The translations under genes were made by a program, and so were the position numbers. Shown piece after piece: positions 11,971-33,686 of a stretch of 33,686 nt of DNA. Source of the stretch: Pseudomonadota bacterium (GTDB lineage Bacteria; Desulfobacterota; WTBG01; JAPLJA01); assembly GCA_026388815.1 (NCBI GenBank), contig JAPLJA010000259.1, positions 1-33,686 of the forward strand, written 5' to 3'. The notes beneath the pieces are model-generated. The model was not told where the DNA came from. It did no database searches and was given only the letters and a program-made list of their open reading frames with translations. Each line of letters starts with the position of its first letter. The stretch's first letter is position 1.

Positions 11971-11977
11971 AACGATT

Positions 11978-12018
11978 AATAGGATCACGAAATGATTTTA
12001 TGATCCTATTTCTGTTTT
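11978..12018 (+). terminator. Intrinsic terminator after the fic gene
   Basis: A perfect ten-base inverted repeat, AATAGGATCA (11978-11987) and TGATCCTATT (12001-12010), with a 13-base loop, followed by TCTGTTTTT. It starts eight bases past the fic stop. Confidence 0.7.
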
Positions 12019-12388: not shown

Positions 12389-12478
12389 TTCAACATCTGC
12401 TGAAAATATCATAAAAAATGAAATATAGCTTGACACTAAATTATTTTATTGTAATAATAATTTTCAACGAATGCTGAA
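12389..12478 (+). promoter_or_regulatory. abiE promoter flanked by two palindromic operators
   Basis: TTGACA (12430-12435) with TAATAA (12452-12457, 16-base spacing) or AATAAT (12453-12458, 17-base spacing) forms a strong promoter. It is bracketed by two related inverted repeats: TTCAACATCTGCTGAA (12389-12404) and TTCAACGAATGCTGAA (12463-12478). Their centres are 74 bases apart, close to seven DNA turns. AbiEi antitoxins are known to repress their own operon through two inverted repeats, which this layout fits. A third weaker palindrome (TTTTCACTGAAAA) lies at 12370-12382. Confidence 0.7.
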
Positions 12479-12491
12479 ATAGGTATTATTG

Positions 12492-15223: not shown

Positions 15224-15256
15224 CTGCGTCAAACTTTCATGTTAATAAAGAAAATT

Positions 15257-17804: not shown

Positions 17805-17913
17805 TGTATCAACTCCACGTTTGACTATTAAAAGCACTTGGCTTTCAGCTTTCACTAAAAAGCTGTCAGCGATCAGCTCTCAGCTTTATTGAATTTAAGC
17901 TGAAAGCTGAGAG
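17805..17913. repeat. Intergenic repeat of AGCTTTCAGC type
   Basis: Words such as GGCTTTCAGCTTTCA, AGCTGTCAGCGATCAGCTC and the inverted AAGCTGAAAGCTGAGAGCT fill the gap between the HdrA stop and the MvhD start. The long inverted pair (17869-17888 and 17898-17916) can fold into a hairpin, and the repeat runs into the last codons of HdrA. Confidence 0.6.
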
Positions 17914-20900
17914 CTATCCACTTGCAATCGCTGCGATCTGGGCAGAAATCTGGTCGTAGGTGTACCTTCCCATGCTGATCGCCTGCTTCGGGCACCGGGC
18001 TGCACACACCCCGCACCCCTTGCAGGAGGCGGTGATGGTTTCTGCACGCTCTCCTTTTTCTGTCTGTACCACCCGGATCGCCTTGTACGGGCAGTTGTAT
18101 TCACAGATTCCGCACCCGAAACAGAGTTCCTGATCCACCGAAGAGATGATGGGCTCGACCTCAACCTCCCCCCGTGAAAGAGGAATGGCTGCCCGGGCTG
18201 CTGCTGCCTGTGCCTGGACAATGGACTCCTCCAGCGGCTTCGGCGAGTGAGCCAGCCCGCAGAGGAAGATACCGTCGGTGGCAAAGTCTACCGGCCTGAG
18301 CTTTACGTGGGCCTCCAGGAAGAACTTGTCATCTGTCAGCGACACCTTGAGCAGCTTGCCCAGCTCTTCATTCCCCTGCGTGACTATTGCCGGGCTTAAG
18401 ACCAGGAGGTCGCTCTTGATGAGCACGTCCTCTTTCAGGATCGGATCAAAGACCTTGATCTCAAGAGTTTCGCCTTCCTTCACTTCGGGCTTTCCTTCCA
18501 GGTCATAGCGGATGAAGATGATACCCACATCGCGCGCCTTGTTGTAAGCGTCCTCTTTAAATCCATAGGTCCGGATATCCCGGTACAGGATATAGACATT
18601 ACAATCCGGATTGAGCTCCTTTATCTTCAGGGCGTTCTTGATCGCCTTGCTGCAGCAGAGCTTGCTGCAGTAGGGCCGCTTTTCAGGCTCCCGTGAGCCC
18701 ACGCACTGGATCATCACAACATCCTTCACAGAGCAGATCTGTGATGGGTTAGTACCAAGTTTCTCCTCCAGCTCCTGCTGGGTGATTACCTTCGGGCTCT
18801 TCCCGTAGAGGTATTCATCTGGCTTGTACTCCTGTGCACCGGTAGCCACCACGATGATGCCGTGCTCGATCTCCATCGGTTGATCCGATCCGTTTTTCTG
18901 AACGACCTGGGTCCTGAAATTACCGATATACCCGCTTACTCCTGTTACCTCGGTAGAGGTCAGGATGGTGATCCTCGGGTCTTTCTGGATCTTTTCAATG
19001 GTATCGCTCAGGAATTTCTGGGGGTCATTCCCGTCTAACGTGAAATAGAGCTTCCGGAGATTCCCTCCCAGCTCCTTCTCCTTTTCAACCAGGAAACATT
19101 CATACCCCTGCCGTGCGATCTCCAGGGCAGCAGTCATGCCTGCAAGCCCGCCGCCGATCACCAGGCCCCTGGGGTTTACCTGGACCCGCTGTTCAGGGAG
19201 GGCGCTTAAGAGGCGTGCCTTGGAGACTGCACTCCTGATCAGGTCTTTTGCCTTTTTCGTTGCCCGTTCCTTTTCATGCATGTGGACCCAGGAGTTCTGA
19301 TCCCGGATGTTTGCCATCTCAAAGAGGCACCGGTTAAGCCCTGCCTCCCGGATCGTCTCCTGGAACAGGGGCTCGTGGGTCCTCGGCGTGCAGGCAGCCA
19401 CGATAACCCGGTTCAGCCTGTGCTCCTTGATGAGCTCCTTGATCCTCACCTGTGAATCCTGGGAGCAGCTGTACATGTTTTCTTCTGCATAGGCCACGTT
19501 GGGGAGGGTCCTGACATACTCAGCCACCTCAGGCACATCCACCACGCCGGCGATGTTGGTCCCGCAGTGACAGACAAAGACGCCGATGCGTGGCTCTTCT
19601 CCGGAGACATCGATCTCAGGAGGGAACACCCTTTCCTTTACCCTCGTGCCCCGGCTTGCCGAGAGAAGTCCTGATGAGAGGGCTACTGCGCCGCTCGCCT
19701 GCATGACGCTTTCCGGGATGTCCTTGGGCGACTGGTAGGCGCCTGCCACGTAGATCCCTTCCCGGCTCGTCTTTAAGGGGGCGAACTCGTTCGTCTCGCA
19801 GAAGCCGTAGGGATTGAGGTGGATCTTGAGAGAGTCAGCAAGCTGCTGGTATCCGCGACAGGGCTCCATCCCGACGGAGAGGACTACCAGGTCAAACTCT
19901 TTTTCGTCTTTTGCTCCGCTTTCATTCACGTAGCGAACAATGAGGTTCTCAGTCTCAGGGATTCTCCTGATCTTCGTTGCCTTGGAGCGAACGAAGTTGA
20001 TGCCGAACTCCTTCTTCCCCCTCTCGTAGAACTGCTCAAAGCCCTTGCCCATGGTCCGCATATCCATGAAGAAGATGGTGATCTGAAGATTGGGGTCATG
20101 CTCCTTGATGACAATCGACTCCTTGATGGCATAGGTGCAGCAGACCGTAGAGCAGTAGGGATTTCCTGCCTGAACATCCCTTGAGCCCACGCACTGGATG
20201 AAGGCGACGCGCTTGGGGTGTTTGCCGTCGGACGGCCTCATCACTTCTCCCAGGAAGGGACCGGAGGCACACATGATCCTCTCGAACTGGATGCTCGTGA
20301 CCACGTTGGGATAGCGGCCGTAGCCGTACTCAGCCTTGAGCCCTGCATCAAACTCCTCGAATCCGGGCGCGAGGATGATCGAGCCGACCTCCAGGTTGAG
20401 GATCTCGTCCTTGTCCTTGAAGTTGATCGCGTCAGTGCCGCAGACCTCTTCGCACTGCCTGCACTCGTTCTTGCTTAAGTAGAGGCAGCTTTTTTCATCG
20501 ATCCCGAAATAGGCCGGGACAGCCTGGGGGTAGAGCATGTGGATGCACTTCACGTTTTTCAGATTTTCGTTGTAGCTGTCCTTGATCTCGATGGGGCAGT
20601 AGTTGATACAGATACCGCAGGCATTGCACTTCTCCCGGTCCACATACCGGGCTCTCCTCTTCACCTGGCAGCGGAAGTTACCCGGGACGCCCTCGATCCC
20701 CTTCACCTCTGCATTGGTGATGATTTCGATGTTGCGGTGCCTGCCGCATTCCACCAGCTTGGGTGAGAGGATGCAGAGCGAGCAGTCAAGGGTGGGGAAG
20801 GTCTTGTCCAGTTGTGCCATGACCCCGCCGATAGCAGGTGATGCCTCAACCAGGTAAACGTAGTAACCGAGCTCAGCCAGGTCAAGGGAGGCCTGCACTC

Positions 20901-20973
20901 CTGCTACCCCGCCGCCCACTACCATGACGGTGCCGATCTGTTCCTTCTGCTTCGTGAGGTCACTGCTGCTCAT
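17914..20973 (-). CDS. hdrA: HdrA-like flavin/Fe-S subunit (Fdh-linked copy)
   Basis: A 1019-residue long-form bacterial HdrA. HdrA is the FAD subunit that bifurcates or confurcates electrons in heterodisulfide-reductase-type complexes. Order: FAD motif VVGGGVAG (18-25), cluster DCSLCILSPKLVECGRH (63-79), CNACGICINYCP (116-127), CLYLSKNECRQCEEVC, QCVGSRD with YCSTVCC, the CHCGTNIAGVVDV region, a second nucleotide-binding fold GLVIGGGLAG near 610, and two C-terminal [4Fe-4S] motifs (CFGCGICEYNCP, CKGCGVCAARCP). It lies between hdrC and the Sec-MvhD. No HdrB is present, so a CoM-CoB-type disulfide is not the likely substrate. Closely similar along its length to the copy at 25206. Confidence 0.93.
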   Translation of the reverse strand: MSSSDLTKQKEQIGTVMVVGGGVAGVQASLDLAELGYYVYLVEASPAIGGVMAQLDKTFPTLDCSLCILSPKLVECGRHRNIEIITNAEVKGIEGVPGNFRCQVKRRARYVDREKCNACGICINYCPIEIKDSYNENLKNVKCIHMLYPQAVPAYFGIDEKSCLYLSKNECRQCEEVCGTDAINFKDKDEILNLEVGSIILAPGFEEFDAGLKAEYGYGRYPNVVTSIQFERIMCASGPFLGEVMRPSDGKHPKRVAFIQCVGSRDVQAGNPYCSTVCCTYAIKESIVIKEHDPNLQITIFFMDMRTMGKGFEQFYERGKKEFGINFVRSKATKIRRIPETENLIVRYVNESGAKDEKEFDLVVLSVGMEPCRGYQQLADSLKIHLNPYGFCETNEFAPLKTSREGIYVAGAYQSPKDIPESVMQASGAVALSSGLLSASRGTRVKERVFPPEIDVSGEEPRIGVFVCHCGTNIAGVVDVPEVAEYVRTLPNVAYAEENMYSCSQDSQVRIKELIKEHRLNRVIVAACTPRTHEPLFQETIREAGLNRCLFEMANIRDQNSWVHMHEKERATKKAKDLIRSAVSKARLLSALPEQRVQVNPRGLVIGGGLAGMTAALEIARQGYECFLVEKEKELGGNLRKLYFTLDGNDPQKFLSDTIEKIQKDPRITILTSTEVTGVSGYIGNFRTQVVQKNGSDQPMEIEHGIIVVATGAQEYKPDEYLYGKSPKVITQQELEEKLGTNPSQICSVKDVVMIQCVGSREPEKRPYCSKLCCSKAIKNALKIKELNPDCNVYILYRDIRTYGFKEDAYNKARDVGIIFIRYDLEGKPEVKEGETLEIKVFDPILKEDVLIKSDLLVLSPAIVTQGNEELGKLLKVSLTDDKFFLEAHVKLRPVDFATDGIFLCGLAHSPKPLEESIVQAQAAAARAAIPLSRGEVEVEPIISSVDQELCFGCGICEYNCPYKAIRVVQTEKGERAETITASCKGCGVCAARCPKQAISMGRYTYDQISAQIAAIASG

Positions 20974-20977: not shown

Positions 20978-21451
20978 TCAGCTCTTCTCCACGATCTCTT
21001 TTAACATTTCCTTGGGGGTTACCTTACTTTCTTCTTTCCTCTTCTCCACCGCGGATGTGACCATCTTGTCGCGGACGGTCTGGATGAAACTTTCTATGGA
21101 CTTCAGGGTCTTGGGGAAGGAGGGATCTACAAACCCTTCTTTCACCGCCATCTCTCGGAGCACCTCCATGGCCTCGCTGAACCGTACATCCTGGGGACAG
21201 ATGAAGGAGCAGGTGTTGCAGAGCGAGCAGAGCCAGATGAAGTCAGAGGAGAGTACCCTTTCCTTCATACCCAGCATGATCATCCTGATGATCTTCCTCG
21301 GGTCGTACCGGTCATCGATCTCAGCCACCGGGCACCCGCCTGTGCATACCCCGCAGGCAAAGCAGGATTTGATATGTCCTCCCCCGGGCTTCTCCGCCAC
21401 TTCGTACTTGAAGCCGGGATTCAGTTCATTTAAGAATTTTGGTAGCGCCAT
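20978..21451 (-). CDS. hdrC: HdrC-like 4Fe-4S subunit
   Basis: A 157-residue protein with two classic [4Fe-4S] motifs, CFACGVCTGGCP (30-41) and CSLCNTCSFICP (75-86), in the HdrC spacing. HdrC normally relays electrons from HdrA to HdrB; with no HdrB in the locus it more likely wires HdrA to the formate dehydrogenase encoded just upstream. The start at 21451 has GTGAGGTGGGAGG before it. The stop is four bases from the hdrA start, and the gap from fdhA is 14 bases, so the genes are co-transcribed. Confidence 0.9.
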   Translation of the reverse strand: MALPKFLNELNPGFKYEVAEKPGGGHIKSCFACGVCTGGCPVAEIDDRYDPRKIIRMIMLGMKERVLSSDFIWLCSLCNTCSFICPQDVRFSEAMEVLREMAVKEGFVDPSFPKTLKSIESFIQTVRDKMVTSAVEKRKEESKVTPKEMLKEIVEKS

Positions 21452-21465: not shown

Positions 21466-23517
21466 TCATATGATCTTTTTTATCTTTACAGCACACGCCT
21501 TATACTCGGGAATCTTGGAGATCGGGTCGAGTGCCGGATTGGTCAATATGTTCGCCGCACTCTCAGCAAAGTGAAAGGGGATGAAGACAATCCCCGGCCT
21601 GATCTTCTTGCTGATCCTGGTCTTTGTCTCAATGCTCCCCCGCCGGGATTCTACCTCTACCATCTCGCAATCCCTGATGCCGAGCTTTTTTGCATCCCGG
21701 GGATTGATCTCCATGTACCCCTCAGGCACCTCGCTCTCCAGGTTCGGCGACCTGCGGCTCATGCTTCCTGTATGGTACTGGAAAATCACTCTGCCGGTCG
21801 TGAGGGTAAAGGGGTATTCCTGGTCAGCTTCCTCTGCCGGTTTCTTGTACGGCGCCGGCTTAAACAGGCCCTTCCCCCGGGTGAACTGTTCCTTATGGAG
21901 AATGGGTATTCCAGGATGCTCGACATTCGGGCAGGGCCACTGGAGCCCTGATGGTGTATTCAGCCGTTCGTAGGTCATCCCTGCATAGCTCGGCGTTACC
22001 TTCCTGATCTCTTCAAAAATCTCCTCTGCATTCTTGAAGGGGAATAAATTTCCTGCACCCATCTTCTCCGCCAGCTTGCAGATAATCTTGCTGTCTTCTT
22101 TCGCTTCTCCGGGCGGCTCGACAGCCTTCCGTACCCGCTGCACCCTCCGCTCCGTATTGCTGAAGGTTCCCTCCTTCTCTGCAAAGCAGGCCGAGGGGAG
22201 GACGACGTGGGCAAACTTCGCTGTCTCGGTAAGGAAGATGTCCTGGACAACAAGGAGGTCGAGCTGCTTTAAGCTGTGCTCGACGTGTTTCAGGTCAGGG
22301 TCAGAGACCATGGGGTTTTCCCCCATGATGTACATGGCTTTTACCTTCTTTTGATTTGCAGCCTCCATCATCTCCATAACGGTAAGCCCCGGCTTGGAGG
22401 GGAGTTCTTTCACACCCCAGGCTGAGGCGGCTTTCTGTCGTGCTTCATCGTTGGCAACCTGCTGATAGGCGGGGAGCACATTGGGGAGAGCACCCATGTC
22501 GCAGGCACCCTGGACATTGTTCTGTCCCCGGAGCGGATTCACGCCGGTGCCCGGCCTTCCGATATTCCCTGTGAGCATGGCCAGGTGTGCGGTTGCCATC
22601 ACATTCTCTGTACCGGTGGTATGCTGGGTAATCCCCATGCAGTAGACAATGGCTGCGCTCTCAGCCTTGGCATAAAGCCTCACTGCCTCCCTGATCTGTT
22701 CTTCGGGCACGCCGGTTACCTCAGCCACTTCGTCAAGGGAGATCGTGTCCAGCAGCGCCTTGAGTTCCGCGAACCCCTCTGTCCGCTGCTCAATAAACTC
22801 CTTGTTCTCAAGCCCTTCTTCGAGGGTCACCTTTGCCATCCCGTTGAGCAAGGCGAGGTTTGTCCCCGGTTTCAGCGGGAGGTAGAGGTCAGCCATTGAG
22901 GACAGTTGAATAGCCCTGGGGTCGCACACAATAAGCTTTGCCCCCTTCTCCTTTGCCCTGACCATCCTGCGGGCGATGAGAGGATGCTGGGAAGTGGTAT
23001 CCGATCCGATCACTAAGATGCACTTCGCCTCTTCCAGGTCGCTGATTGAATTGGTCATTGCCCCGCTGCCAAAAGTTGCGGCCAGACCGGCCACGGTTGA
23101 GGAGTGTCAGAGACGGGCGCAATGGTCCACATTGTTTGTCCCGATGACTACCCGGACAAACTTCTGTAAGAGGTAATTCTCTTCATTGGTGCAGCGCGCA
23201 GAAGAAAGGAAGGAGATCGCATCAGGGCCTGACTGCTCCTTGAGGGCAGTGAGCTTTCCGGCAATTAGGGTAAGTGCTTCATCCCAGGATGTCTCTGTGA
23301 ACTCATCCCCCTTCCTGATCAGGGGCTTGGTAAGCCTGTCCGGATGATCGATGAACTGGTGGGCATTCCACCCCTTGATGCAGAGCTTGCCCTCATTGAC
23401 CGGGTGTCTCTGCCAGGGCTCGCACCCTGCGACTTTCCCGTCCTTGACCACGAGCAGCATTCCACAGCCGCAGCCGCAATAGGGGCAGACCGTCGGGATA
23501 AAGCTAAGCAAGGTCAA
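21466..23517 (-). CDS. fdhA: Formate dehydrogenase catalytic subunit, selenocysteine-containing
   Basis: FdhA oxidises formate (or reduces CO2) at a Mo/W-bis-pterin centre. The reading continues through UGA at 23109-23107 as VDHCARL-U-HSSTVAGL, exactly where E. coli FdhF has its selenocysteine; the frame is unbroken on both sides, giving 683 residues (Sec137). Before it lies the [4Fe-4S] motif CPYCGCGCGML (11-21); after it GSGAMTNS, YCMGITQHTTGTENV, LRGQNNVQGACDMG and a molydopterin-binding C-terminus. The start is TTG 23517, or TTG 23511, which has better spacing from AAAGGAGGGG; both overlap the end of the 23504 gene. A SECIS hairpin follows the UGA. It is no pseudogene. Confidence 0.95.
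23078..23109 (-). promoter_or_regulatory. SECIS element of fdhA
   Basis: Eighteen bases after UGA comes loop GGUCU (23088-23084), closed by GUGGCC/GGCCGC (23094-23089 and 23083-23078; five Watson-Crick pairs and one U-G). Loop sequence and distance equal those of the E. coli fdhF SECIS that binds SelB. Confidence 0.92.
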
Positions 23518-24550
23518 CCCCTCCTTTGGTTAATTCCTCCTCGGTGATCATACCGAGCGGTGGAATCTCATCCTCATGAACGCCCGACTCATAGTGAAAG
23601 AGGGCAGAGAGGTCGTGGTAGAGGGCATGGTAGAGCAGGGAGATAGGGATCTCAGCCGGGCAGGCTGCCTCGCACTGCCCGCAGTTCAGACAGCTGTCAG
23701 CGATATGGAACAGCCTGATCAAGTGGAACATCTTGTCCGGCGGTATCTCTCCACCTTTGACCATGAACCGGTTCGGACCGAGGTAACAATCCTTGCAGTA
23801 ACAGACAGGGCAGGCATCCTTGCAGCCATAGCACTTGATGCACTTGTCAAACTGCCTGAACCAGTAATCCAGCCTCTGTTCCGGGCTCATCTTCCTGAGC
23901 TTTTCAAACGTCTCTTTCTGCCGCTCTAAAGCCTTCTCCCGTTTCGCAGTTTTCGGTGCCCCCTTCTCAAAGTCTATGCCGGCAAGCTTCGCCAGCTTCT
24001 CACCCTTTTCCGTACAGGCGAACACCTGCGTCGCCTGCGCTTCTATCTTCAGGCTCAGGTCAGCCATAAACGGTACCGGGTATTCACACCGCTGGCAGTT
24101 GGGCGAAATGCTCTCCTCGCTGAGCTCAACCTTTTTGCCGCCAACCTCTGCGCCCTGATCAGTGATCCTGAACTCCTCCTTCTGGTTTCCTGCCCTGCTG
24201 CTCTTCACGGTGCCATAGCATTCAATGCCGATCAGAAACAGGTCTTCCCGTTTGAACTGGTTTCTCTTGATGAGCTCGATTGCCCCGCGGGCATCACAGG
24301 AACGGACCACCAGGCCGATCTTTTTCCCTTCTTCTCCATAGTCCCGGAGCAACCGGGAAAGGCTGTAGGGATAGTATGAGGCGGTGGAGATTTTCTCCGC
24401 CTCTTCAGGTTTCGTGATGAAGCAGGGGACAAGGTCAGCCCGGTCCAGGCCCTCAGTATAGGCCAGGACTCCTTCTACCATATTGTTCTTTAGTAAGGTG
24501 GCTGCGAGGGTGTTGATTACCCCGCCGCCGTATTTCTTCTCTGTCATCAT
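23504..24550 (-). CDS. FrhB/FdhB-like formate dehydrogenase electron-transfer subunit
   Basis: About 348 residues, related to the F420 hydrogenase/dehydrogenase beta-subunit family (FrhB, FdhB), flavoproteins that link formate dehydrogenase to other carriers. N-terminal half: VVRSCDARGAIELIKRNQ and FLIGIECYG; then CQRCEYP; two C-terminal [4Fe-4S] motifs, CIKCYGCKDACP and CLNCGQCEAACP. In bacteria lacking F420 such subunits probably serve ferredoxin or NAD(P), so F420 use is not implied. The start is ATG 24550 or 24547; an upstream TTG (24562) lies in repeat DNA. Its end overlaps fdhA, so the two subunits are translationally coupled. Confidence 0.85.
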   Translation of the reverse strand: MMTEKKYGGGVINTLAATLLKNNMVEGVLAYTEGLDRADLVPCFITKPEEAEKISTASYYPYSLSRLLRDYGEEGKKIGLVVRSCDARGAIELIKRNQFKREDLFLIGIECYGTVKSSRAGNQKEEFRITDQGAEVGGKKVELSEESISPNCQRCEYPVPFMADLSLKIEAQATQVFACTEKGEKLAKLAGIDFEKGAPKTAKREKALERQKETFEKLRKMSPEQRLDYWFRQFDKCIKCYGCKDACPVCYCKDCYLGPNRFMVKGGEIPPDKMFHLIRLFHIADSCLNCGQCEAACPAEIPISLLYHALYHDLSALFHYESGVHEDEIPPLGMITEEELTKGGVDLA

Positions 24551-24562
24551 TCCATTCCGCAA

Positions 24563-24738
24563 TAAAAAACCCGAAACTCGAAACTAATACAAGGGCATTA
24601 AGTAAAGCGTCATTGCGAGGAGTGAAACGACGAAGCAATCTCTTGTTTATGAGGTGAGATTGCCACGCTCCCGTTGGTCGCTCGCAATGACAATGTAATA
24701 ATTAATGTGTTTGTATTAAAACAAAATATTTTCATTCT
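24563..24738. repeat. Intergenic gap with an 83-base palindromic repeat element
   Basis: Inside the gap lies an element at 24609-24691: left arm GTCATTGCGAG...GCAATCTC (24609-24642), right arm GAGATTGCC...CTCGCAATGAC (24656-24691). The termini are perfect inverted repeats and the centres diverge. GTCATTGCGAG-headed palindromes are a known widespread bacterial repeat type. Left of it are AAACCCGAAACTCGAAACT words; right of it is an AT-rich stretch. No gene. Confidence 0.75.
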
Positions 24739-25203
24739 TCATTTTCTTAACGGGTTTGGCCCGAGTTTTTTGATTTCCTCGGTAAAGTTCTGTATGGTCT
24801 CAGCAAACTTCGGCCCTTCCGATGCTGATATCCATTCAAGGTGGAGCCTCTCCGGCTCGATTCCGACGTGCTCGAGGAGTTGCTTCGCCAGGAGCATCCG
24901 TCTCCGGGCATAGTAGTTCCCCTTCATGTAATGGCACTCTCCCGGATGGCAGCCGCCTACGAGGACGCCGTCCAAGCCCCCGGTCAGAGCCTTTAATATA
25001 TAAATGGGGCTCACCCGGGCTGAGCACATCACCCTCACCACCCGGACATTGGGTGGATACTGGAGCCTGCTCACCCCGGCAAGATCAGCGCCGGCGTAAC
25101 TGCACCAGTTGCAGAGAAAGCCGATGATCAGCGGCTCGAAACCTTCTTGTTTTGGGTTTCGGGTTTCGGGTTTCGGGTTTGTAGCTTTTAGATCTTTATT
25201 CAT
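24739..25203 (-). CDS. mvhD: MvhD-family [2Fe-2S] subunit, cysteine form (AOR-linked copy)
   Basis: A 154-residue Mvh[29 protein letters not shown] and GVLVGGCHPGECHYMKGNYY, then LEWISASEGPKFAE. Here the motif has Cys where the paralogue at 16998 has Sec, and no winged helix follows. It should feed or drain HdrA at 25206, two bases upstream. Oddly, residues 8-18 (NPKPETRNPKQ) are encoded by a heptameric AACCCGA repeat of the same kind as found in gaps, so the N-terminus seems built from repeat DNA; family proteins normally begin near FEPLIIGFLCNW. No better start codon is visible. Confidence 0.9.
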   Translation of the reverse strand: MNKDLKATNPKPETRNPKQEGFEPLIIGFLCNWCSYAGADLAGVSRLQYPPNVRVVRVMCSARVSPIYILKALTGGLDGVLVGGCHPGECHYMKGNYYARRRMLLAKQLLEHVGIEPERLHLEWISASEGPKFAETIQNFTEEIKKLGPNPLRK

Positions 25204-25205
25204 AT

Positions 25206-28200
25206 TTAACTCGTAACTTCAAACTCGGAACTCGCAACTTCTTCAATGAGGGCATCTACCTCTGCCATGATCTGGAGGTCCTGGAAGTTCTGGACAAAGC
25301 AGGCTGCAGAAGGGCAGCAGGCAGCGCAATTGCCGCATCCCTTGCAGAGCACCTCATTGACCTGCGCCACATGTTCCTTTTCATCAAAGCTGATCGCCTC
25401 ATAGGGGCAGACCCGGACACAGAGCATGCATCCGGAGCACCTCTCCCTGTCAATCGAGGCAACGACCCCCTCGCTCAGCAGGGTATCTTTTACCAGGACC
25501 GTGGTGGCACGCGAGGCAGCAGCCTGCGCCTGGGCAATGGACTCATCGATGAACTTGGGAAAGTGGGCAAGCCCGCACATGAATACCCCCTCGGTGGCAA
25601 AGTCCACCGGCCTGAGCTTCATGTGGGCCTCGAGGAAGAAGCCGTCCTGGGTGAGTGGCACCTTGAAGAACTGAGAAAGCTCCTTATTCTCTTTTGGGGC
25701 ACACGTGGCAGCAGCGAGCGCCAGGATATCAGTGTCGATGACCAGATGCTCCTTTACGATCGGGTCATAGACGCTCACCATGAGAGAAGACTTTGTTCCC
25801 TCTTTTACCGCTTCCACCTTCGGCTTGTTATCCAGGTCATAGCGGATGAAGATGATCCCGAGGTCCCGTGCCTTCTGGTAGAGTTCCTCTTTGAACCCGT
25901 AGGTGCGGATGTCGCGGTAGAGGATGAAGATATTGATCTCAGGGTTGAGCTCCTTGAGCTTCAAAGCGAGCTTGATGGACTGGGTACAGCAGACCCGGCT
26001 GCAGTAGGGCCGTTTCTCTTCCCGTGAGCCCACGCACTGGATGAATACGGCATTCTTCCCCTTCTTCAGGCGGGCACTCTTCTTCGCTATCTCGCCTTCC
26101 AGCTCCAGCAGGGTTGTCACCCTGCGGTCTTTCTGGTAGAGGTATTCTTCAGGCTTATATTCAAAGGCACCGGTGGCGATGATCGCCACGCCGTGCTCTA
26201 TCTGGACGGGTTTGCCTTTGGCCGCAATCTCGGTCTTGAAGTTTCCTACATAACCTAACACCTTCGTGATGGCTGCTTCGGTATACACCATGATCATGGG
26301 GTTATGGGAAACCTTTTCCATGAGGGAGGAGAGGTATGCAGGTATCTCCTCGCCGTTCAGACTGTAGTGGAGCCTCCGGGCAAGCCCTCCCAGCTCCTTT
26401 TCCTTTTCGATGAGATGAACCTTGAATCCCTGCTCAGCAAGGTTCAGGGCTGCATTCATCCCCGCAATCCCTCCTCCTACCACGAGGGCTTCGTGGGAGA
26501 GGGTCAGGGAATGCTGCTTTAACGGCTTGAGGAGGGCAGCCTTGGCCACTGCCATTTTCACCAGGTTCTTTGCCTTTTCCGTTGCCTCTTCCTTTTCATG
26601 CATGTGGACCCAGGAGCACTGGTCGCGGATATTCGCCATCTCGAAGAGATAGCGGTTCAGTCCGGCCTCTTTCATGGTCTCCTGGAAGAGAGGTTCATGG
26701 GTCCTCGGCGTACAGGCAGAAACGACGATCCGGTTCAAGTTGTGCTCTTTGATCTTCTCCTTGATCTTCTCCTGCGTATCCTGAGAACAGGTATAGAGGT
26801 TCTGGTCTACAAAGGCCACGTGGGGAAGGGTGGCAGCGTATTCCTTCACCCTGGTTACATCCACCACGCCGGCGATGTTGATCCCGCAGTGACAGACAAA
26901 GACGCCAATCCGGGGCTCTTCTCCTTCTACCGGTTTCTCCGGCGGGTACTCCTTCTCTTCGACTAAGCTCTTCCTCACCTCCCCGAGCAGGGCTGAGGAG
27001 TTTCCTGCTGCCCCGCTTGCTTGCATCACCGTCTCAGGGATGTCCTTCGGTCCCTGGAAGGCGCCGGCAACGAAGATCCCGGGCCTGGTCGCTGCGAGGG
27101 GCGCGAATTCAGAAGTCCTGCAGAAGCCATACTGGTTCAGTTCAATGCCGAGCGTGTCAGCCAGTCCCTTCGCGCTCGGGGTAGGCTCCATCCCGACTGA
27201 GAGAACGAGGAGGTCGAATGCTTCCTTCCTGACCTTTCCGTCCTCAGTGACGTACTCAAGGATGAGGTCCTTGTCTTCGGTTTCCGCTACTGATGAGACC
27301 ATGGAGCGGAGAAAGTGGATTCCCTGCGCCTTGGCCTGTTCATAGTAGGCATCAAATCCCTTGCCGTAGGCCCGCAGGTCCATGAAGAAGATGGTGATAT
27401 CAAGGTCGGGGGCATGTTCCCTCGCAATGATTGACTCCTTGATTGCGTACATGCAGCAAACGGATGAGCAGTAGGGATTGCCTACCGTTACGTCCCGGGA
27501 GCCTACGCACTGGATAAAGGCGATCTTGTGGGGGTGTTTCCGGTCTGATGGCCGTTCCACGTTGCCCTTATAGGGGCCGGATGCGGAAAGGACCCGCTCG
27601 AACTGGATGCTCGTAACCACGTTCTCAAATCTTCCGTAGCCGTAGTGATATTTGGCGAGGGGTGAAAATTCGCTGAACCCCGGGATCAGGATCACGGAAC
27701 CGACATTCACCTCGATGGTCTCTTCCTTCTCGTCAAAGTTTATCGCCTTGCTCTGGCAGAACTTTTCGCATAACTTGCATTTCCCCTTGGTGAGATAACG
27801 GCAGTGTTCAGGGTCAATCAGATAGGACAGGGGAACCGCCTGGGGGTAGGGGATGTAGATTGCCCTTCTCTCCATGAGCCCCTCGTTATATTCATCCTTT
27901 ACCTTGATGGGGCACTTCTCGGTGCAGGCACCGCAGGCTACGCATTTCTCAATGTCCACGTACCGGGGCTTCTTTAACAGGGTGACGGTGAAGTTCCCTG
28001 CGTCCCCCTTGATGCCGGTCACGCTGGTGTTGGTCAGGATCTCGATGTTCTTGTGTCTGCCGCACTCCACCAGCTTGGGCGAGAGGATGCACATGGAGCA
28101 GTCGTTGGTGGGGAACGTCTTGTCAAGCTGTGCCATCACCCCGCCGATGGCAGGCGAGTCCTCAACAAGATAAACCTTGTATCCGCTCTCTGCGAGATCG

Positions 28201-28280
28201 AGGGCAGCCTGGACTCCGCCCACTCCGCCGCCTATCACCATGACAGCGCCGATCTTTTCCTTCCCTTTCATCAACTCCAT
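25206..28280 (-). CDS. hdrA: HdrA-like flavin/Fe-S subunit (AOR-linked copy)
   Basis: A 1024-residue paralogue of the HdrA at 17914 with the same order: FAD motif VIGGGVGG, DCSMCILSPKLVECGRH, CVACGACTEKCP, QCVGSRD with YCSSVCC, CHCGINIAGVVDV, a second fold VVGGGIAG, and C-terminal CSGCMLCVRVCP and CKGCGNCAACCP. It is the likely flavin site for splitting or merging electrons between AOR, ferredoxin and MvhD. It lies six bases after the ferredoxin at 28287 and two before MvhD. The last residues (SSEFEVTS) are encoded by a GAGTT-type repeat, so the 3' end seems to run into repeat DNA. Confidence 0.93.
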   Translation of the reverse strand: MELMKGKEKIGAVMVIGGGVGGVQAALDLAESGYKVYLVEDSPAIGGVMAQLDKTFPTNDCSMCILSPKLVECGRHKNIEILTNTSVTGIKGDAGNFTVTLLKKPRYVDIEKCVACGACTEKCPIKVKDEYNEGLMERRAIYIPYPQAVPLSYLIDPEHCRYLTKGKCKLCEKFCQSKAINFDEKEETIEVNVGSVILIPGFSEFSPLAKYHYGYGRFENVVTSIQFERVLSASGPYKGNVERPSDRKHPHKIAFIQCVGSRDVTVGNPYCSSVCCMYAIKESIIAREHAPDLDITIFFMDLRAYGKGFDAYYEQAKAQGIHFLRSMVSSVAETEDKDLILEYVTEDGKVRKEAFDLLVLSVGMEPTPSAKGLADTLGIELNQYGFCRTSEFAPLAATRPGIFVAGAFQGPKDIPETVMQASGAAGNSSALLGEVRKSLVEEKEYPPEKPVEGEEPRIGVFVCHCGINIAGVVDVTRVKEYAATLPHVAFVDQNLYTCSQDTQEKIKEKIKEHNLNRIVVSACTPRTHEPLFQETMKEAGLNRYLFEMANIRDQCSWVHMHEKEEATEKAKNLVKMAVAKAALLKPLKQHSLTLSHEALVVGGGIAGMNAALNLAEQGFKVHLIEKEKELGGLARRLHYSLNGEEIPAYLSSLMEKVSHNPMIMVYTEAAITKVLGYVGNFKTEIAAKGKPVQIEHGVAIIATGAFEYKPEEYLYQKDRRVTTLLELEGEIAKKSARLKKGKNAVFIQCVGSREEKRPYCSRVCCTQSIKLALKLKELNPEINIFILYRDIRTYGFKEELYQKARDLGIIFIRYDLDNKPKVEAVKEGTKSSLMVSVYDPIVKEHLVIDTDILALAAATCAPKENKELSQFFKVPLTQDGFFLEAHMKLRPVDFATEGVFMCGLAHFPKFIDESIAQAQAAASRATTVLVKDTLLSEGVVASIDRERCSGCMLCVRVCPYEAISFDEKEHVAQVNEVLCKGCGNCAACCPSAACFVQNFQDLQIMAEVDALIEEVASSEFEVTS

Positions 28281-28286
28281 CGTGCT

Positions 28287-28661
28287 CTATTCCTCAACTA
28301 CGGTTATGGCAGCGCACGGGCACCACTTGACACAGTCTGGATCAGGCGGATCCCCGCAGAAATCGCACTTCAGATTCACCTGGGTCTCCGGCTCTTTAAA
28401 CCACGGTTTGATGGGGCAGGATGCCCGGCAGATGACACAGGCATCATACTGCCGCCCCTGGATGGAGACCATGTTCTTTGAGGTGCACTCTGCGTCATTG
28501 AACGGGCCGGCCACCACCGGGTAGAAAAGGTCATCTGCCATGAATACCCTGATCCGAGATTTTTCAGGATTCACCGAGCCCGGGTAATGCTTCAGGGAAC
28601 AGGCAACCTCGCAGCGCCGGCAGCCAATGCAGATTTCATGGTCAATCTTTAAACGTTTCAT
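28287..28661 (-). CDS. Poly-[4Fe-4S] ferredoxin, AOR-associated (DmsB-like)
   Basis: A 124-residue protein with cysteine groups CIGCRRCEVAC (11-21), CVICRASCP and CDFCGDPPDPDCVKWCP, enough for three to four [4Fe-4S] clusters, plus the NPEKSRIRV element shared with the ferredoxin at 13991. Such ferredoxins accompany AOR-type enzymes and move electrons out of them. It lies between AOR (upstream) and HdrA (six bases downstream), exactly where an AOR-to-HdrA wire would be expected. Confidence 0.87.
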   Translation of the reverse strand: MKRLKIDHEICIGCRRCEVACSLKHYPGSVNPEKSRIRVFMADDLFYPVVAGPFNDAECTSKNMVSIQGRQYDACVICRASCPIKPWFKEPETQVNLKCDFCGDPPDPDCVKWCPCAAITVVEE

Positions 28662-28853
28662 GTATTAAAAAATCCTAAATTAGAATTACTAAATCCAAAA
28701 CATTCAAGCGTTCAACTGTCAGCGGTCAGCTTTCAGCCTCATTTAATGGGCAACCACGGGGGGTTGCCCCTACATAAAACCGAAGGCCCGCCTTGCGGGT
28801 AGGTCTTTTATTCATCATTCCGCAATCCGAAATCCGCAATCCGCACTCCGAAA
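28662..28853. repeat. Repeat-filled gap between AOR and its ferredoxin
   Basis: It contains CAGCGGTCAGCTTTCAGC words, a palindrome at 28748-28773 (GGGCAACC...GGTTGCCCCTAC, GTAGGGG-headed on the minus strand), a short hairpin CCCGC-CTT-GCGGG (28787-28799) and AATCCGCAATCCGCA words up to the AOR stop. No gene. Confidence 0.7.
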
Positions 28854-30671
28854 TTACTTCAGCCCCAGTTCCTTCATCTTCTCCGGGGTTGGATTTCCCT
28901 CCTTATCCCATCCCCTCAGCTCATAGTACTCAGCAAGCATTCCCTTCAGCTCGCATACCCTCCCTTTCGCAGGACCATCCTTCATCGGCTCGTTTAAGAA
29001 TGTGAGCGGCAGGGTATCGTCCTTTCCGCTCAGCCCGGCCCTGAGATTGAACGAACGCTCTGCATTCCATACCCTCTCTCCGGCCTTGAGCAGGGAAGCA
29101 AGGGTGAAGTTCAATCCGGCCCCCCCTTCCAGCATGGGCAGGATCTCGTCAATCCAGATCCCCCAGAGGAGGAGCGGGCATAAGCCGCTTGAGTCTGATA
29201 CGGCTGTTACATCCTGGTATTCCTTTACCAGCAGCGCCTTTCCTTCCGGTGAAAGGGGATCAACCTTCTTCCTGATTCCGAAGATCTCAGAGATCAGGGT
29301 AAAGCCGTTTGCATGGGTGGCCCCGGTACTGGAGGTGGCAAAGTGGAGGCCGAGCCCCTGGATGCCCCGGGGATCATAGGGAGGCATCTCCTGCCGTTTC
29401 ACCCCTATGAACAGTTCAGGATGCCCGAGACTCCGGGCGAGTTCAAAACCGCCTTCTCCCATGTTCTCGCCGAAGCCCTGTCCCTCGCCAATCCGCTTCA
29501 CTGACTCAACCATTGCTTCGGCATTCCCGAAGGTGAAGGGGTAGCCGATCTCTTTCTCCTTCAGGATCTTCCTCTCAAAGAGGTCCATGGCAAGTGCGAT
29601 GACCGAGCCGGTGGATACGGGGTCAAGCCCCAGCTCGAGGCAGAGAAGGTGTGCCCTTTCAATCGCTGCTATCTGCCCGATCCCGCAGGCGATCCCCAGC
29701 ATGCCCAGGGCGTCGTAGTCTGCTCCTTCGATGGGCAGGGGCATATCCGGCTCATTCAGCTCCAGGACCTTCCTGCAGCCGATGGGGCAGCCATAGCAGG
29801 CGCGGCTTTTCTTCTGGATGGTATCAGCGATGAGTTCCCCGCTCACCTGATGGGCGTTTTCAAAGATGCCCGACTGGAAATTCCGGTACGGAAGAATGCC
29901 CCTCGAGTTAAGGATGCTTACCAGGAAGGGGGTGCCGAGGTTCCTCAATGCCTGGGAGACCATTGATGTGGTCTTGAACCGGGAGAGGGCCTCGGTGACA
30001 GCAGTGGTAAAGGTTTCCTGGGCTGCGAGGGTTATGTCCCCGGTTCCCTTGGCTGCGATTGCCTTGAGGTTCTTCGACCCCATGACAGCGCCGACGCCTG
30101 AACGGGCAGCCATCCTGAACTTGTCATTCACGATGGAGGAAATCCTTAAGAGACGTTCACCGGCCGGGCCGATACTGAGTATGGAGCACTCACGTGCTTG
30201 CCAGGGGTCTTCCCATTCAGCCCTGATCTGGGCTTCCGTCTGATGGGTGGTAGCGCCCCAGAGGTGCGATGCGTTCAGGATCTCGACCTTCCCGTTATTG
30301 AGGGTGATGAATACCGGATAGGGGGCCTTCCCCTCCACAATCATCAGGTCGTATCCTGCAAATTTCAGCTCTGTTCCGAAGTTGCCGTCACAGCCTGAAC
30401 AGGCAATCGCCCCGGTTAAGGGGGACTTGGTTACAACAAAGAATTCACAACTGCACAGAGCGCCGGTACCGGTGAGGGTACCGGTGGCAAAGACGAGCTT
30501 ATTCTCAGCGCTTAAGGGATCAACCGTAGCGTCAATCTCATCCGAGAGAACTTTTACACCCAGGCCTCTTCCGCCAATGAAATCCTTAAAGAGGCGGGTA
30601 TCCAATTCTTCCACGGTGTGCGTCCCCCGGGTGAGATCAATTCTCAAAGCCCTTCCCCGGAACCCGGCCAT
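28854..30671 (-). CDS. aor: Tungsten-type aldehyde:ferredoxin oxidoreductase
   Basis: A 605-residue AOR-family enzyme with a bis-pterin W (or Mo) site that interconverts aldehydes and carboxylic acids with ferredoxin. The [4Fe-4S] ligands are all present: Cys292, 295, 299 (CYGCPIGC) and Cys498 (SSGLCPLL), the same spacing as Pyrococcus AOR. ARSGVGAVMGSKNLKAIAAK (189-208) is the family pterin-binding signature; FIGGRGLGVK lies at 31-40. It begins on the last base of the ferredoxin stop (30671). The HdrA and MvhD downstream recall benzoyl-CoA reductase class II (Bam) clusters, whose BamB is also an AOR relative, but the length and motifs favour a true AOR. Substrate unknown. Confidence 0.92.
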   Translation of the reverse strand: MAGFRGRALRIDLTRGTHTVEELDTRLFKDFIGGRGLGVKVLSDEIDATVDPLSAENKLVFATGTLTGTGALCSCEFFVVTKSPLTGAIACSGCDGNFGTELKFAGYDLMIVEGKAPYPVFITLNNGKVEILNASHLWGATTHQTEAQIRAEWEDPWQARECSILSIGPAGERLLRISSIVNDKFRMAARSGVGAVMGSKNLKAIAAKGTGDITLAAQETFTTAVTEALSRFKTTSMVSQALRNLGTPFLVSILNSRGILPYRNFQSGIFENAHQVSGELIADTIQKKSRACYGCPIGCRKVLELNEPDMPLPIEGADYDALGMLGIACGIGQIAAIERAHLLCLELGLDPVSTGSVIALAMDLFERKILKEKEIGYPFTFGNAEAMVESVKRIGEGQGFGENMGEGGFELARSLGHPELFIGVKRQEMPPYDPRGIQGLGLHFATSSTGATHANGFTLISEIFGIRKKVDPLSPEGKALLVKEYQDVTAVSDSSGLCPLLLWGIWIDEILPMLEGGAGLNFTLASLLKAGERVWNAERSFNLRAGLSGKDDTLPLTFLNEPMKDGPAKGRVCELKGMLAEYYELRGWDKEGNPTPEKMKELGLK

Positions 30672-30949
30672 CAGAGCTTTCCTCCCAGGATTTGAAAGAA
30701 GGTCTTGGTATTCCCCTTCTCAATGAGGGTAATGGCAAAGCCGGGGCAGGCTACCACGCAGTCATTGCACATTGTGCAGTCCACCGGCTTGATCACCTCA
30801 GGGATATTGTAATCATTCAGGGCGAGCACCTTGTTCGGACACACGTCGACACAGACCTTGCACTTCACGCACCATTTCGGTGAGATATTGACGCATTGCT
30901 TATGGTACTTGCTCTCTGTCTCTTTGGTCTTCTTTTTCTTCGATATCAT
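30671..30949 (-). CDS. 2[4Fe-4S] ferredoxin preceding AOR
   Basis: A 92-residue ferredoxin with a lysine-rich N-terminus and two motifs, CVKCKVCVDVCP (27-38) and CTMCNDCVVACP, the classic two-cluster arrangement. It is a likely direct electron acceptor of AOR: its stop shares a base with the AOR start. The start at 30949 lies just after the WD40 stop (30953) without its own Shine-Dalgarno, so it appears to be translated by coupling to that gene. Confidence 0.9.
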   Translation of the reverse strand: MISKKKKTKETESKYHKQCVNISPKWCVKCKVCVDVCPNKVLALNDYNIPEVIKPVDCTMCNDCVVACPGFAITLIEKGNTKTFFQILGGKL

Positions 30950-30952
30950 CGC

Positions 30953-32626
30953 TTACTGTATCGCCCAGAGCTGACAGGTTCCGTCGTCTGAACCGGAGAT
31001 GAGGTATTTCCCTTTCGGGTCAAAGGCAACTGATTCCACTTGGTTGGTATGGCCGGAAAAAGTATTCACCAGGGCACGTTTCCTGAGATCCCAGAGGTCG
31101 ACCATAGTTCCACCCCGCGCAGCAGCAAGATACTTCCCGTCGTTACTTATTGCTATAGACCAGATACGGTCTGTTTTCTCACCAAGGGTTCCTACTGACT
31201 TGCCGACCGCTAAATCCCAGAGGGCCATACCGCCCTTTTCAGAGGCGGTAATCAGGTATCTCCCTTCCGGCAGGAAAGAGAGCGACCAGACCTCTCCCCC
31301 ATCACTCTTGAGAATACGTACCGCTTTTCCCATCGCCACATCCCAGACCCGTACGGTTCCATCCTGTGAACCGGATGTGATATATTTTCCATCAGGGCTG
31401 AAACTGGCTGTCCACACCGGCTTTCTGTGGCCGGTGAGTGCCTTGACCTCGATCCCCTCAAGCACATCCCAGATCCTGATTGTCCTGTCGTCAGAACCGG
31501 ATGCGAGATAATCGCCGTCAGGGCTGAAGCAGAGTGAAGTGACATAATCGGTATGTCCCTTCAGGGTCTTCAGTTCAATCCCTTTTTCATAATCCCAGAG
31601 TTTTATGGTGTCATCATCCGATGATGAAGCTAAGAGCTTTCCATCCGGGCTGAACCTCACGGAATTTACATCGTCGGTATGGCCCTTCAACGTGGTTACA
31701 AGGACATTCGTCTCATAATTCCAGATGCGGAGGCAGTTGTCCTTGGAGCCTGAAGCGAAGAGGGGTTGTGAAGGATGAAAGGCGACTGACCATACATGGC
31801 CGGTGTACCCTTCAATGGTCTTCAGGAGTTTACCGCTCTTTGCTTCCCAGAACCGGATCGTGTTGTCTCTCGAACCTGAGACGATGTGTTTTCCATCCGG
31901 ACTGAAGTTCAGTGACCAGACAAAACTTGTATGACCGATAAGGGTCTTGATCTCTTTGCCGGTTGCAACGTTCCAGAGCTTGATGGTCCCGTCGTCTGAG
32001 GCAGAGGCCAGGTATTTTCCCTCAGGATCGAAACAGACTGCGATTACATAATCTCCGTGTCCTTCGAGGGTTTTAATATTCTTCCCTTCACGGTCCCAGA
32101 TCTTTATCGTCTTATCATCCGAGCCGGAGACGATATATTTCATGTTCGGGGAGAAGTCGATGGATTCGATGATGTTGGCATGGCCTTCGAGCACCTTCAC
32201 CTCTTCCCCGGTCTTCACGTCCCAGAGCCTGATGGTGTCGTCGTTGGAGCCGGATGCCAGGAGCTTCCCGTCAGGGCTGAAGCGGACAGAGGTTACGTCG
32301 TCCTTGTGCCCTTTAAGTGTCCTGATGGCCTTTCCGGTCTTCACGTCCCAGAGCCTGATGGTGTCGTCGTTGGAGCCGGATGCCAGGAGCTTCCCGTCAG
32401 GGCTATAGTTTACGGTGACCACATAGTCTTTATGCTGGGTCAGTGACTTTATTAGCTGTAAATCCTTTACCCGGTAGATTTCGATTCCCCGGGTGGTGGC
32501 GACGGCAATTGATTCACCATCCGGTGAATATTTACAGTCAAAGAGCCACCCCTTGCCGAAGTGCCTGACAGGTTTTACCACAGGCTTCACAGCTTTCATC
32601 TTTTCTGTCACACGTAAGGACTTCAC
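30953..32626 (-). CDS. WD40-repeat beta-propeller protein
   Basis: A 557-residue protein made almost wholly of 13 WD40 units of about 42 residues (typical unit SVRFSPDGKLLASGSNDDTI, then RLWD). No signal peptide, membrane segment or catalytic domain is seen, so a cytosolic binding scaffold is likely. Two neighbouring units share a 71-base identical stretch (32208-32278 and 32334-32404), evidence of recent internal duplication. The start is GTG 32626, or ATG 32599 (MKAVKPVVKPVRHFGKG); neither has a strong ribosome site. It lies between the CoA-transferase and the AOR ferredoxin with gaps of only 3 to 60 bases, so it is part of that operon. Confidence 0.9.
   Translation of the reverse strand: MKSLRVTEKMKAVKPVVKPVRHFGKGWLFDCKYSPDGESIAVATTRGIEIYRVKDLQLIKSLTQHKDYVVTVNYSPDGKLLASGSNDDTIRLWDVKTGKAIRTLKGHKDDVTSVRFSPDGKLLASGSNDDTIRLWDVKTGEEVKVLEGHANIIESIDFSPNMKYIVSGSDDKTIKIWDREGKNIKTLEGHGDYVIAVCFDPEGKYLASASDDGTIKLWNVATGKEIKTLIGHTSFVWSLNFSPDGKHIVSGSRDNTIRFWEAKSGKLLKTIEGYTGHVWSVAFHPSQPLFASGSKDNCLRIWNYETNVLVTTLKGHTDDVNSVRFSPDGKLLASSSDDDTIKLWDYEKGIELKTLKGHTDYVTSLCFSPDGDYLASGSDDRTIRIWDVLEGIEVKALTGHRKPVWTASFSPDGKYITSGSQDGTVRVWDVAMGKAVRILKSDGGEVWSLSFLPEGRYLITASEKGGMALWDLAVGKSVGTLGEKTDRIWSIAISNDGKYLAAARGGTMVDLWDLRKRALVNTFSGHTNQVESVAFDPKGKYLISGSDDGTCQLWAIQ
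32208..32404. repeat. Exact 71-base duplication inside the WD40 gene
   Basis: Bases 32208-32278 and 32334-32404 are identical. They are offset by 126 bases, one WD40 unit of 42 codons. Other units are clearly diverged, so this copy is young or kept alike by recombination. Confidence 0.85.
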
Positions 32627-32658
32627 AACAGGTAATACGTAATTGGGCCAGCTATTCT

Positions 32659-33686
32659 CTATACCACTTTATCTGCTATAAGTTTTTCAATCTCCTCTGC
32701 GCTGTACCCGAGATCTTTAAGCACCTCTTTATTGTGCTGACCCAATAGAGGAGGGGGAGCTGTGATTTCACCCGGGGCCTCAGAAAGTTTTACCGGGACT
32801 CCTGTCACCTTGATCTTCCCCGCCTTGGGGTGGGTAAGCTCTACCATCATCTTCCGGTGGAGCACTTGGGGATCGGAGAAGAGTTTGTCGAGGGTGTAGA
32901 TGGGTCCTGCCGGTATGCCCGCATCCTCGAGCAGCTTGAGCCACTCAGCCCCGGTCTTGGTCTCGATTATCTTGCTCAGGATAGCAATCAGCTCCTTCCG
33001 GTTCTCAACCCGCTTGGCGTTGGTGACAAACTTCGGGTCATCCATGATGTTTTCCATGTTGATCACTTTGCAGAACCTCTTCCAGAGCTGGTCGTTTCCT
33101 GCGGCGATATTGATGTATTCATCCTTTGCCTTGAACGCCTGGTAGGGAACAATCATCGGATGCCCTGACCCGACTTTTTCAGGCAGCTTGCCGGATGCAA
33201 AAAACTCACCGGCCCGGTAGGTAAGCCAGGCGATCTGGCTGTCGAGGAGAGATGTGTCAACCCACTGCCCTTTGCCCGTCTTCTCACGATGGAAGAGGGC
33301 CAGCATGATGCCGAAGGCGGCAAACATACCGCCGGAGATATCAGCAATGGCAACGCCCACCTTCATGGGAGGGCCGTCCGGTTCACCGGTGATGCTCATC
33401 ATTCCACCCATGCCCTGGAGCGTCTGGTCGAAGCCGGGCAGTTCCCGGTAGGGGCCGTCCTGTCCAAAACCCGAGATGGAGCAGTAAATAATTTTGGGAT
33501 TAATCTTTTTCACCTGCTCATATCCCAGTCCCAGCCGATCCGCTGCACCGGGGCGGAAGTTTTCAACGATGATATCTGACTGCCTGATCATCCTCTCCAG
33601 GATGTCTTTTGACCTGGGGTTCTTCATGTCCAGGGTGAGGCTTTTCTTGTTCCGGTTGATGCTCATGAAGTAAGCGCTTTCACCTT
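32659..33686 (-). CDS. CaiB/BaiF class III CoA-transferase (5' partial)
   Basis: The frame runs to the right window edge (GESAYF precedes MSINRNKKSLTLDMKN), so the first ~50-60 residues lie outside. It moves CoA between acids. Conserved features: ENFRPGAADRLGLGYE, CSISGFGQDGPY, the catalytic Asp in SLLDSQ (residue 142 counted from the Met at 33666), the glycine-rich GSGHPMIVPYQAF and the late GIPAGPIYTLDKLFSDPQ. Substrates of this family include carnitine, formate/oxalate, benzylsuccinate and phenyllactate, and cannot be told from sequence. As first visible gene of the AOR operon it may activate or release the acid that AOR handles (inference). Confidence 0.9.
   Translation of the reverse strand, partial: GESAYFMSINRNKKSLTLDMKNPRSKDILERMIRQSDIIVENFRPGAADRLGLGYEQVKKINPKIIYCSISGFGQDGPYRELPGFDQTLQGMGGMMSITGEPDGPPMKVGVAIADISGGMFAAFGIMLALFHREKTGKGQWVDTSLLDSQIAWLTYRAGEFFASGKLPEKVGSGHPMIVPYQAFKAKDEYINIAAGNDQLWKRFCKVINMENIMDDPKFVTNAKRVENRKELIAILSKIIETKTGAEWLKLLEDAGIPAGPIYTLDKLFSDPQVLHRKMMVELTHPKAGKIKVTGVPVKLSEAPGEITAPPPLLGQHNKEVLKDLGYSAEEIEKLIADKVV

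Follow-up and report, generated by a model that had tools for sequence, protein, structure and literature searches.

The 33.7-kb contig JAPLJA010000259.1 (33,686 nucleotides, hereafter the window) of a Pseudomonadota bacterium belongs to a genome of 3.49 Mb (GCA_026388815.1) that is 98 % complete and 5.3 % contaminated. On its minus strand, a canonical tungsten aldehyde oxidoreductase (AOR) is paired with the electron-transfer adaptor of the class II benzoyl-CoA reductase (Bam), followed by the flavoprotein HdrA and MvhD. This pairing, as read from the sequence, is the central finding. It is probable, at roughly 60 %, that the genes encode an AOR-centred, Bam-like electron-bifurcating complex. 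An earlier sequence-only reading of this DNA had proposed that the AOR is wired to HdrA and MvhD in the manner of Bam; the proposal is supported by the relationship of the adaptor to BamC, by the position of the AOR outside BamB and by the recurrence of the gene order.

The adaptor is the small polyferredoxin encoded downstream of the AOR. It matches BamC (4z3w_E) at 110.9 bits (5.6e-31), AorA at 45.6 bits and WorS of the bifurcating tungsten oxidoreductase (WOR) structure 9mqx at 34, and its 12 invariant cysteines follow the three-cluster pattern of BamC, as against four clusters in WorS (PMC13328260). Likewise, in a tree the protein joins BamC, apart from WorS and AorA (support 100/98), and the same tree parts the WorS neighbours at loci L127 and L187 from BamC. 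It had previously been described as a poly-cluster ferredoxin, which is correct as to its several clusters and can be made more exact by naming it a BamC relative. At L235 (3207-5952), an AOR of another clade adjoins a protein like the window ferredoxin Fd3 and a BamC-type gene 63 % identical to that of the window; the adaptor is thus not confined to a single AOR clade.

The catalytic subunit scores 555 bits against the AOR of P. furiosus and 185 against BamB in phmmer comparisons. In two trees (106 and 47 rows) it falls within the canonical AORs, together with PfAOR, AaAorB and 9mqx, and BamB is a distant outgroup to this clade (100/100). Clustering within BamB had been named in advance as the outcome that would speak against the proposal, and the AOR lies outside. 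Cys292, Cys295, Cys299 and Cys498 are the [4Fe-4S] ligands, as had been stated; they do not mark a true AOR, as had also been stated, because BamB of L251 has the same four cysteines (C299/302/306/535), and they were rejected as proof of AOR identity. The residue that separates the two enzymes is the BamB tungsten ligand Cys322 (PMC12096430), which the alignment places at C322 of L251 and opposite Ile314 of the window AOR. Identity of the AOR as a BamB is ruled out by the tree and this column. A review names second-shell residues of AOR, including Thr243, Glu313, Tyr427 and His448 (PMC12096430). Second-shell Thr243, Tyr312, Tyr427 and His448 are kept as T247, Y319, Y432 and H453, and there are substitutions of Glu313 to Asp320, Glu311 to Asp318, Tyr452 to Phe457, Arg76 to Glu and Asn93 to Gly. 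The surroundings of the active site have diversified in the subclade, and the substrate is not to be assumed; substrate or chemistry may differ from those of a plain AOR. Structure predictions for the BamC-type protein (six-row alignment, pLDDT 41) and for the AOR (single sequence, pLDDT 36) were discarded.

HdrA1 and HdrA2, each of about 1020 aa with two flavin adenine dinucleotide (FAD) domains, are of type II in the scheme of PMC12054007. A glutamate and a lysine at the FAD (Glu356 and Lys409 in M. thermolithotrophicus numbering) are proposed marks of a bifurcating HdrA (PMC12054007). Both halves of HdrA1 and HdrA2 retain this pair, as does the GltD-split HdrA, and it is predicted that HdrA1 and HdrA2 can split electron pairs. 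The GGGNVA motif of the HdrA-GltD protein is of the NADP type by the criterion of PMC12054007, which suggests NADP(H) as its partner. FdhA exceeds the cut-off of the Fdh-alpha model TIGR01591 (666 bits), a stem-loop with a GUCUGG apex follows both in-frame UGA codons, in FdhA and MvhD2, and the genome encodes a tRNA for selenocysteine (Sec; 71 bits). HdrA1 and MvhD1 are less close to their counterparts in architecture C, described below, than are HdrA2 and the Sec-containing MvhD2, and this connects the second half of the cluster with AOR-linked hubs. HdrA1 and HdrA2 do not fall in a single AOR-specific clade of the HdrA tree, and HdrA seems to have been recruited more than once.

All seven genes of the sequence-only reading, for a CoA-transferase, a WD40 protein, a ferredoxin, the AOR, the polyferredoxin, HdrA and MvhD, are present in that order and at the places given on the minus strand (24739-33684), with successive spacings from the CoA-transferase to MvhD1 of 32, 3, -1, 192, 6 and 2 bp (Table 1). 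As an account of the gene run this holds for the seven genes and misses the formate dehydrogenase, the second HdrA and the HdrA-GltD half: colinear genes on the same strand extend past 24739 down to 13685, adding FrhB/HdrC, Sec-containing FdhA, HdrC, HdrA2, Sec-containing MvhD2, the split HdrA-GltD, Fd3 and MoaD. The last two of these, Fd3 and MoaD, belong to protein types associated with AOR.

A gap of 192 bases with repeats, noted earlier between the AOR and the next ferredoxin, is indeed present and holds interspersed repeats, as does the gap between MvhD1 and FrhB. In relatives the AOR and BamC genes are close (72 bp in L056) or overlapping (L067, L240 and L140), and G047 keeps the HdrA1-MvhD-FrhB triad without a gap between MvhD and FrhB. 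Promoter-like sites in the region are fewer than in shuffled sequences, with none in the AOR-BamC gap, and terminator-like matches are at chance level, including a weak hairpin in the 192-bp gap. Because the repeats are genome-wide, the spacing in relatives is tight and promoter and terminator sites do not exceed chance, the evidence argues for later repeat insertion as the origin of the gaps, rather than a functional boundary.

The comparison of gene order covered 105 non-identical WOR-family loci whose flanks total 7 kb or more; an HdrA gene was counted if it lay on the AOR strand no more than 8 kb away. HdrA is nearby in 21 of the 26 AOR loci with an adjacent BamC-type gene and in none of the 79 other AOR loci (p 1e-17, only a guide because the loci were partly found via BamC and relatedness is uncorrected). 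The BamC-neighbour count used a stricter score limit than the first labelling, which had included WorS-type genes at L127, L147 and L187. Three of the 21 HdrA-positive loci are real Bam clusters; excluding them, the proportion is 18 of 23. The gene association exceeds chance, and the rows with AOR and BamC form one clade (99/95). A search for the same order in other genomes had been suggested as a check, and WD40-Fd1-AOR-BamC was found in two other genera, L056 of G002 and L057 of G004, at approximately 51-71 % identity (WD40 51-55 %, Fd1 53-57 %).

The surroundings of the AOR-BamC pair take several forms. Architecture A, WD40-Fd1-AOR-BamC-HdrA, is that of the window, G002 and G004, where the contig ends before HdrA could show. 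Architecture B, AOR-BamC-HdrBC-HdrA-MvhD-FeS-HydB-HydG, is seen in five loci, including L058 from the same genome as the window, a variant with AOR and BamC placed after the HydB-HydG end. Architecture C, AOR-BamC-HdrA-MvhD-HdrC-NuoE-NuoF-HoxU, is whole in L067, L240, L241 and L242 and cut by the contig end in L243/L132; it is the layout of Bam with AOR replacing BamB and without HdrB. Architecture D is HdrBC-HdrA-AOR-BamC (L237-L239), and architecture E is HdrA-MvhD-hydrogenase subunits-AOR-BamC (L244; L245 and L247 from MvhD onward). The partner modules across these loci, HydB-HydG, NuoE-NuoF-HoxU, MvhG-MvhA and HdrBC, indicate from gene content that the module serving NAD(P)H, H2 or formate can be exchanged.

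Other proteins accompany these loci. A glutamate-synthase-like protein of 521-524 aa is encoded directly upstream of the AOR (L067:372-1937, L240:3834-5399, L140:218-1783, L248:4288-5853 and L236:6626-8200) and is conserved in architecture C and related loci. In architecture D a protein of 560-580 aa follows BamC (L237:8923-10605, L239:8219-9958 and L162:7612-9294), the copy in L237 bearing a phosphoenolpyruvate (PEP)-utilising mobile domain; this protein may be a clue to the substrate, through activation of the PEP-synthetase or carboxylase-like type. At L126 (2823-8098) AOR-BamC is followed by four subunits like those of 2-oxoacid:ferredoxin oxidoreductase, and L249 has a similar mix plus HdrA, a hint of a possible further partner module.

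From these parts we infer that a complex would form, in which the tungsten AOR would exchange electrons with its substrate, most likely an aldehyde/carboxylate couple. Electrons would pass from the [4Fe-4S] cluster of the AOR through the three-cluster adaptor to the double-flavin HdrA1 with MvhD1, where flavin-based bifurcation or confurcation would link the AOR couple to Fd1 or Fd3 as low-potential carrier. The higher-potential partners would be formate/CO2, via FdhA-FrhB-HdrC, and NADP(H), via the split HdrA-GltD. Both an oxidative and a reductive direction are compatible with the sequence. Aldehyde oxidation feeding ferredoxin and formate or NADPH is somewhat favoured, and has a precedent in AmWOR1, which needs ferredoxin and NAD together to oxidize aldehyde (PMC13328260; PMC9304861) and bifurcates the aldehyde electrons; Bam couples through BamC-E-F (PMC13328260; PMC12096430). 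Carboxylate reduction driven as in Bam is the less favoured direction, and a fairly plausible one; its precedents are Bam itself and the ATP-free acetate activation by AOR postulated for Thermacetogenium phaeum (PMC6895022).

Several observations weigh against an AOR-centred bifurcating complex. In addition to the partial sampling through BamC and the uncorrected relatedness of the loci, AOR-BamC occurs without HdrA at L126, L248 and L250, 192 bp part AOR from BamC in the window, and the window cluster has neither an HdrB CCG domain (PF02754), which BamD of L251 has, nor a NuoE/NuoF/NuoG-like gene, present in relatives L067 and L240-L242. Glu313, the proposed proton acceptor of AOR, is replaced along with Arg76, Asn93 and Tyr452, and its site in the nearest relatives holds R (L027 and L125), N (L126), T (L236) or L (L036, L133, L140 and L240). 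The residue changes suit a different, rather unlikely explanation, that the AOR scaffold is driven by HdrA on another low-potential substrate, such as a CoA thioester or some other group that is hard to reduce, and is BamB-like by convergence. It would agree with the variability of the Glu313 site across the subclade, the loss of Arg76 and Asn93, the near-complete Bam partner set (BamC-HdrA-MvhD-HdrC-NuoE-NuoF-HoxU) of some relatives and the CoA-transferase upstream in the window; it sits less well with the retained equivalents of Thr243, Tyr312, Tyr427 and His448, the acidic residue at the Glu313 site, the absence of the BamB Cys322 and the lack of conservation of the CoA-transferase. A related and still tentative proposal, which is also doubtful, is of a hitherto unassigned family of tungsten enzymes driven by HdrA. 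In it the AOR fold would have been adapted, separately from BamB, to a low-potential reaction that is not plain aldehyde oxidation; in the window, as many as five flavins able to bifurcate, with links to formate and NADPH, would supply the power.

It is decidedly unlikely that the cluster is two independent neighbours, a ferredoxin-linked AOR with WD40, Fd1 and the BamC-type protein beside an HdrA-MvhD-formate dehydrogenase-HdrL complex for formate/NADPH bifurcation. HdrA-MvhD-FdhB-FdhA and HdrL-MvhD loci do occur without AOR in Desulfobacterium autotrophicum (PMC2702500), as does HdrA1-MvhD-FrhB in G047, and the repeat gap and its weak hairpin could mark a border. The BamC gene, however, lies on the HdrA side of that gap, 6 bp from HdrA1, although its relatives in other loci are partnered with AOR and often overlap it; AOR-BamC-HdrA recurs widely. 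No promoter-like site lies in the gap, terminator-like sites do not exceed chance, and the gap repeat occurs throughout the genome. A true class II benzoyl-CoA reductase is very improbable: BamC, a two-FAD HdrA like BamE and a Sec-containing MvhD with a winged helix-turn-helix (wHTH) extension like BamF are all there, but the AOR is outside the BamB clade, with isoleucine in place of Cys322, and the window has no BamD-type CCG domain or NuoEFG subunits. An AOR-centred bifurcating complex remains the preferred reading.

The CoA-transferase had been assigned to the module, and this is not upheld. None of the other AORs examined has such a CoA-transferase within 8 kb, and in G004 other genes precede the WD40 gene. 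The window CoA-transferase, which the contig edge cuts, is not counted in the module and, having no counterpart near other AORs, was rejected as a core part. Next to the operon end, on the plus strand (6295-13550), genes for a DNA methylase, an AIPR protein, a TdeIII-type restriction enzyme, a Fic protein and an AbiEi-like antitoxin form a group resembling a restriction/defence island.

Table 1. Features of the AOR-HdrA cluster in the window
Feature	Position	Strand	Basis or remark
CaiB/family III CoA-transferase	32659..33684	-	PF02515, 398 bits; 5′ end cut by contig edge; module membership doubtful
WD40 beta-propeller protein, possible scaffold	30953..32626	-	PF00400; likewise placed before Fd1-AOR in L056 and L057
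Fd1, 2[4Fe-4S] ferredoxin	30671..30949	-	Fer4_7; stop overlaps AOR start
AOR, predicted catalytic tungsten subunit, 605 aa	28854..30671	-	AFOR_N and AFOR_C far above cut-off
192-bp gap with interspersed repeats	28662..28853	.	Hairpin element 28773-28799, 12 genome copies
BamC-type polyferredoxin, 124 aa	28287..28661	-	12 conserved Cys, three [4Fe-4S] clusters
HdrA1, type II, two FAD domains	25206..28280	-	E228/K281, E728/K770
MvhD1 (FlpD)	24739..25203	-	PF02662, 194 bits
176-bp gap with interspersed repeat	24563..24738	.	Repeat 24658-24689, 16 genome copies
FrhB/FdhB-type subunit with HdrC-like two-cluster domain	23504..24562	-	PF04422, PF04432, PF13183
FdhA formate dehydrogenase	21466..23517	-	In-frame UGA (Sec) 23107-23109; TIGR01591, 940 bits
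HdrC-like two-cluster protein	20978..21451	-	TIGR03290, 88.5 bits, under its cut-off
HdrA2, type II	17914..20973	-	E231/K284, E736/K779
MvhD2	16998..17855	-	In-frame UGA (Sec) 17589-17591; C-terminal wHTH-like extension, cf. BamF of L251
First piece of the HdrA-GltD fusion (HdrA N-terminal part), HdrL/type III-like	15338..17008	-	GGGNVA motif
GltD-split HdrA, second piece	14378..15232	-	Matches HdrA1 167-381; E and K kept
Fd3, short WorS-type ferredoxin	13991..14314	-	Sequence match and ferredoxin tree
MoaD/ThiS family protein, WorX-like, pterin cofactor	13685..13984	-	PF02597, 30.1 bits

These data suggest a little-described family of energy-coupled tungsten enzymes, of putative function. If this is true, the AOR-BamC-HdrA family would be a second bifurcating route for aldehyde/carboxylate chemistry, the Bam electron-delivery kit would serve more than the reduction of aromatic rings, and a testable explanation would exist for some of the AOR-family genes, over 20 in number, of certain uncultured anaerobes. 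Were the direction reductive, carboxylic acids could be activated without ATP. The genome studied here holds approximately 22 AOR-family genes in 3.5 Mb (25 matches, L001-L025, some partial), with a divergent clade (L016-L018) far from both AOR and BamB, and up to roughly 30 candidates were counted at first look in other genomes of the class.

Comparison with known systems places the cluster closest in its parts to several that are already described. Bam (BamBCDEFGHI of Geobacter metallireducens) shares a WOR-family catalytic subunit, a three-cluster BamC, a two-FAD HdrA-type and an MvhD-type protein; in the window, by contrast, a canonical AOR lacking Cys322 takes the catalytic place, and formate dehydrogenase and HdrA-GltD stand in for the missing BamD (HdrB domain) and BamGHI. 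The bifurcating WOR (AmWOR1/ElWOR1, WorLSABC, Class IV of PMC13328260) places an enzyme of the same broad AOR clade on a bifurcating module, but uses the Bfu/NuoEF-type WorABC (BfuABC), whose subunits were not found in the window cluster, and an AorA-type WorS with four clusters, where the window has BamC and HdrA/MvhD. AorABC of Aromatoleum aromaticum likewise combines AOR with a polyferredoxin, but its AorA carries four clusters, the electrons go on to a flavoprotein that reduces NAD, and there is no HdrA. The type II HdrA-Molybdop-FdhB clusters of methanogens and anaerobic methanotrophic archaea (PMC12054007) have a two-FAD HdrA, MvhD, FdhB and a molybdopterin protein thought to be non-catalytic, whereas the window has a Sec-containing FdhA that scores above its cut-off, together with an attached AOR.

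In Desulfobacterium autotrophicum HRM2, HdrA, an HdrA-glutamate synthase fusion, Sec-containing MvhD and FdhB-FdhA occur, HdrL-MvhD-FdhB-FdhA loci are described, and a figure legend of 2009 places Aor5 beside an hdr locus; the available portion of that paper proposes no AOR-HdrA coupling (PMC2702500), and the window unites all of these parts in one run together with a BamC-type adaptor. In the 2026 classification of tungsten oxidoreductases Bam is the sole HdrA-linked system, and bifurcation by aldehyde enzymes is assigned to WorABC (PMC13328260); no paper in the open-licence literature was found to propose AOR-HdrA coupling or to describe a family that combines AOR, a BamC-type adaptor and HdrA. 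AOR, HdrA-formate dehydrogenase clusters and Bam are each known; within that literature, the combination of AOR, a BamC-type adaptor and HdrA is apparently new.

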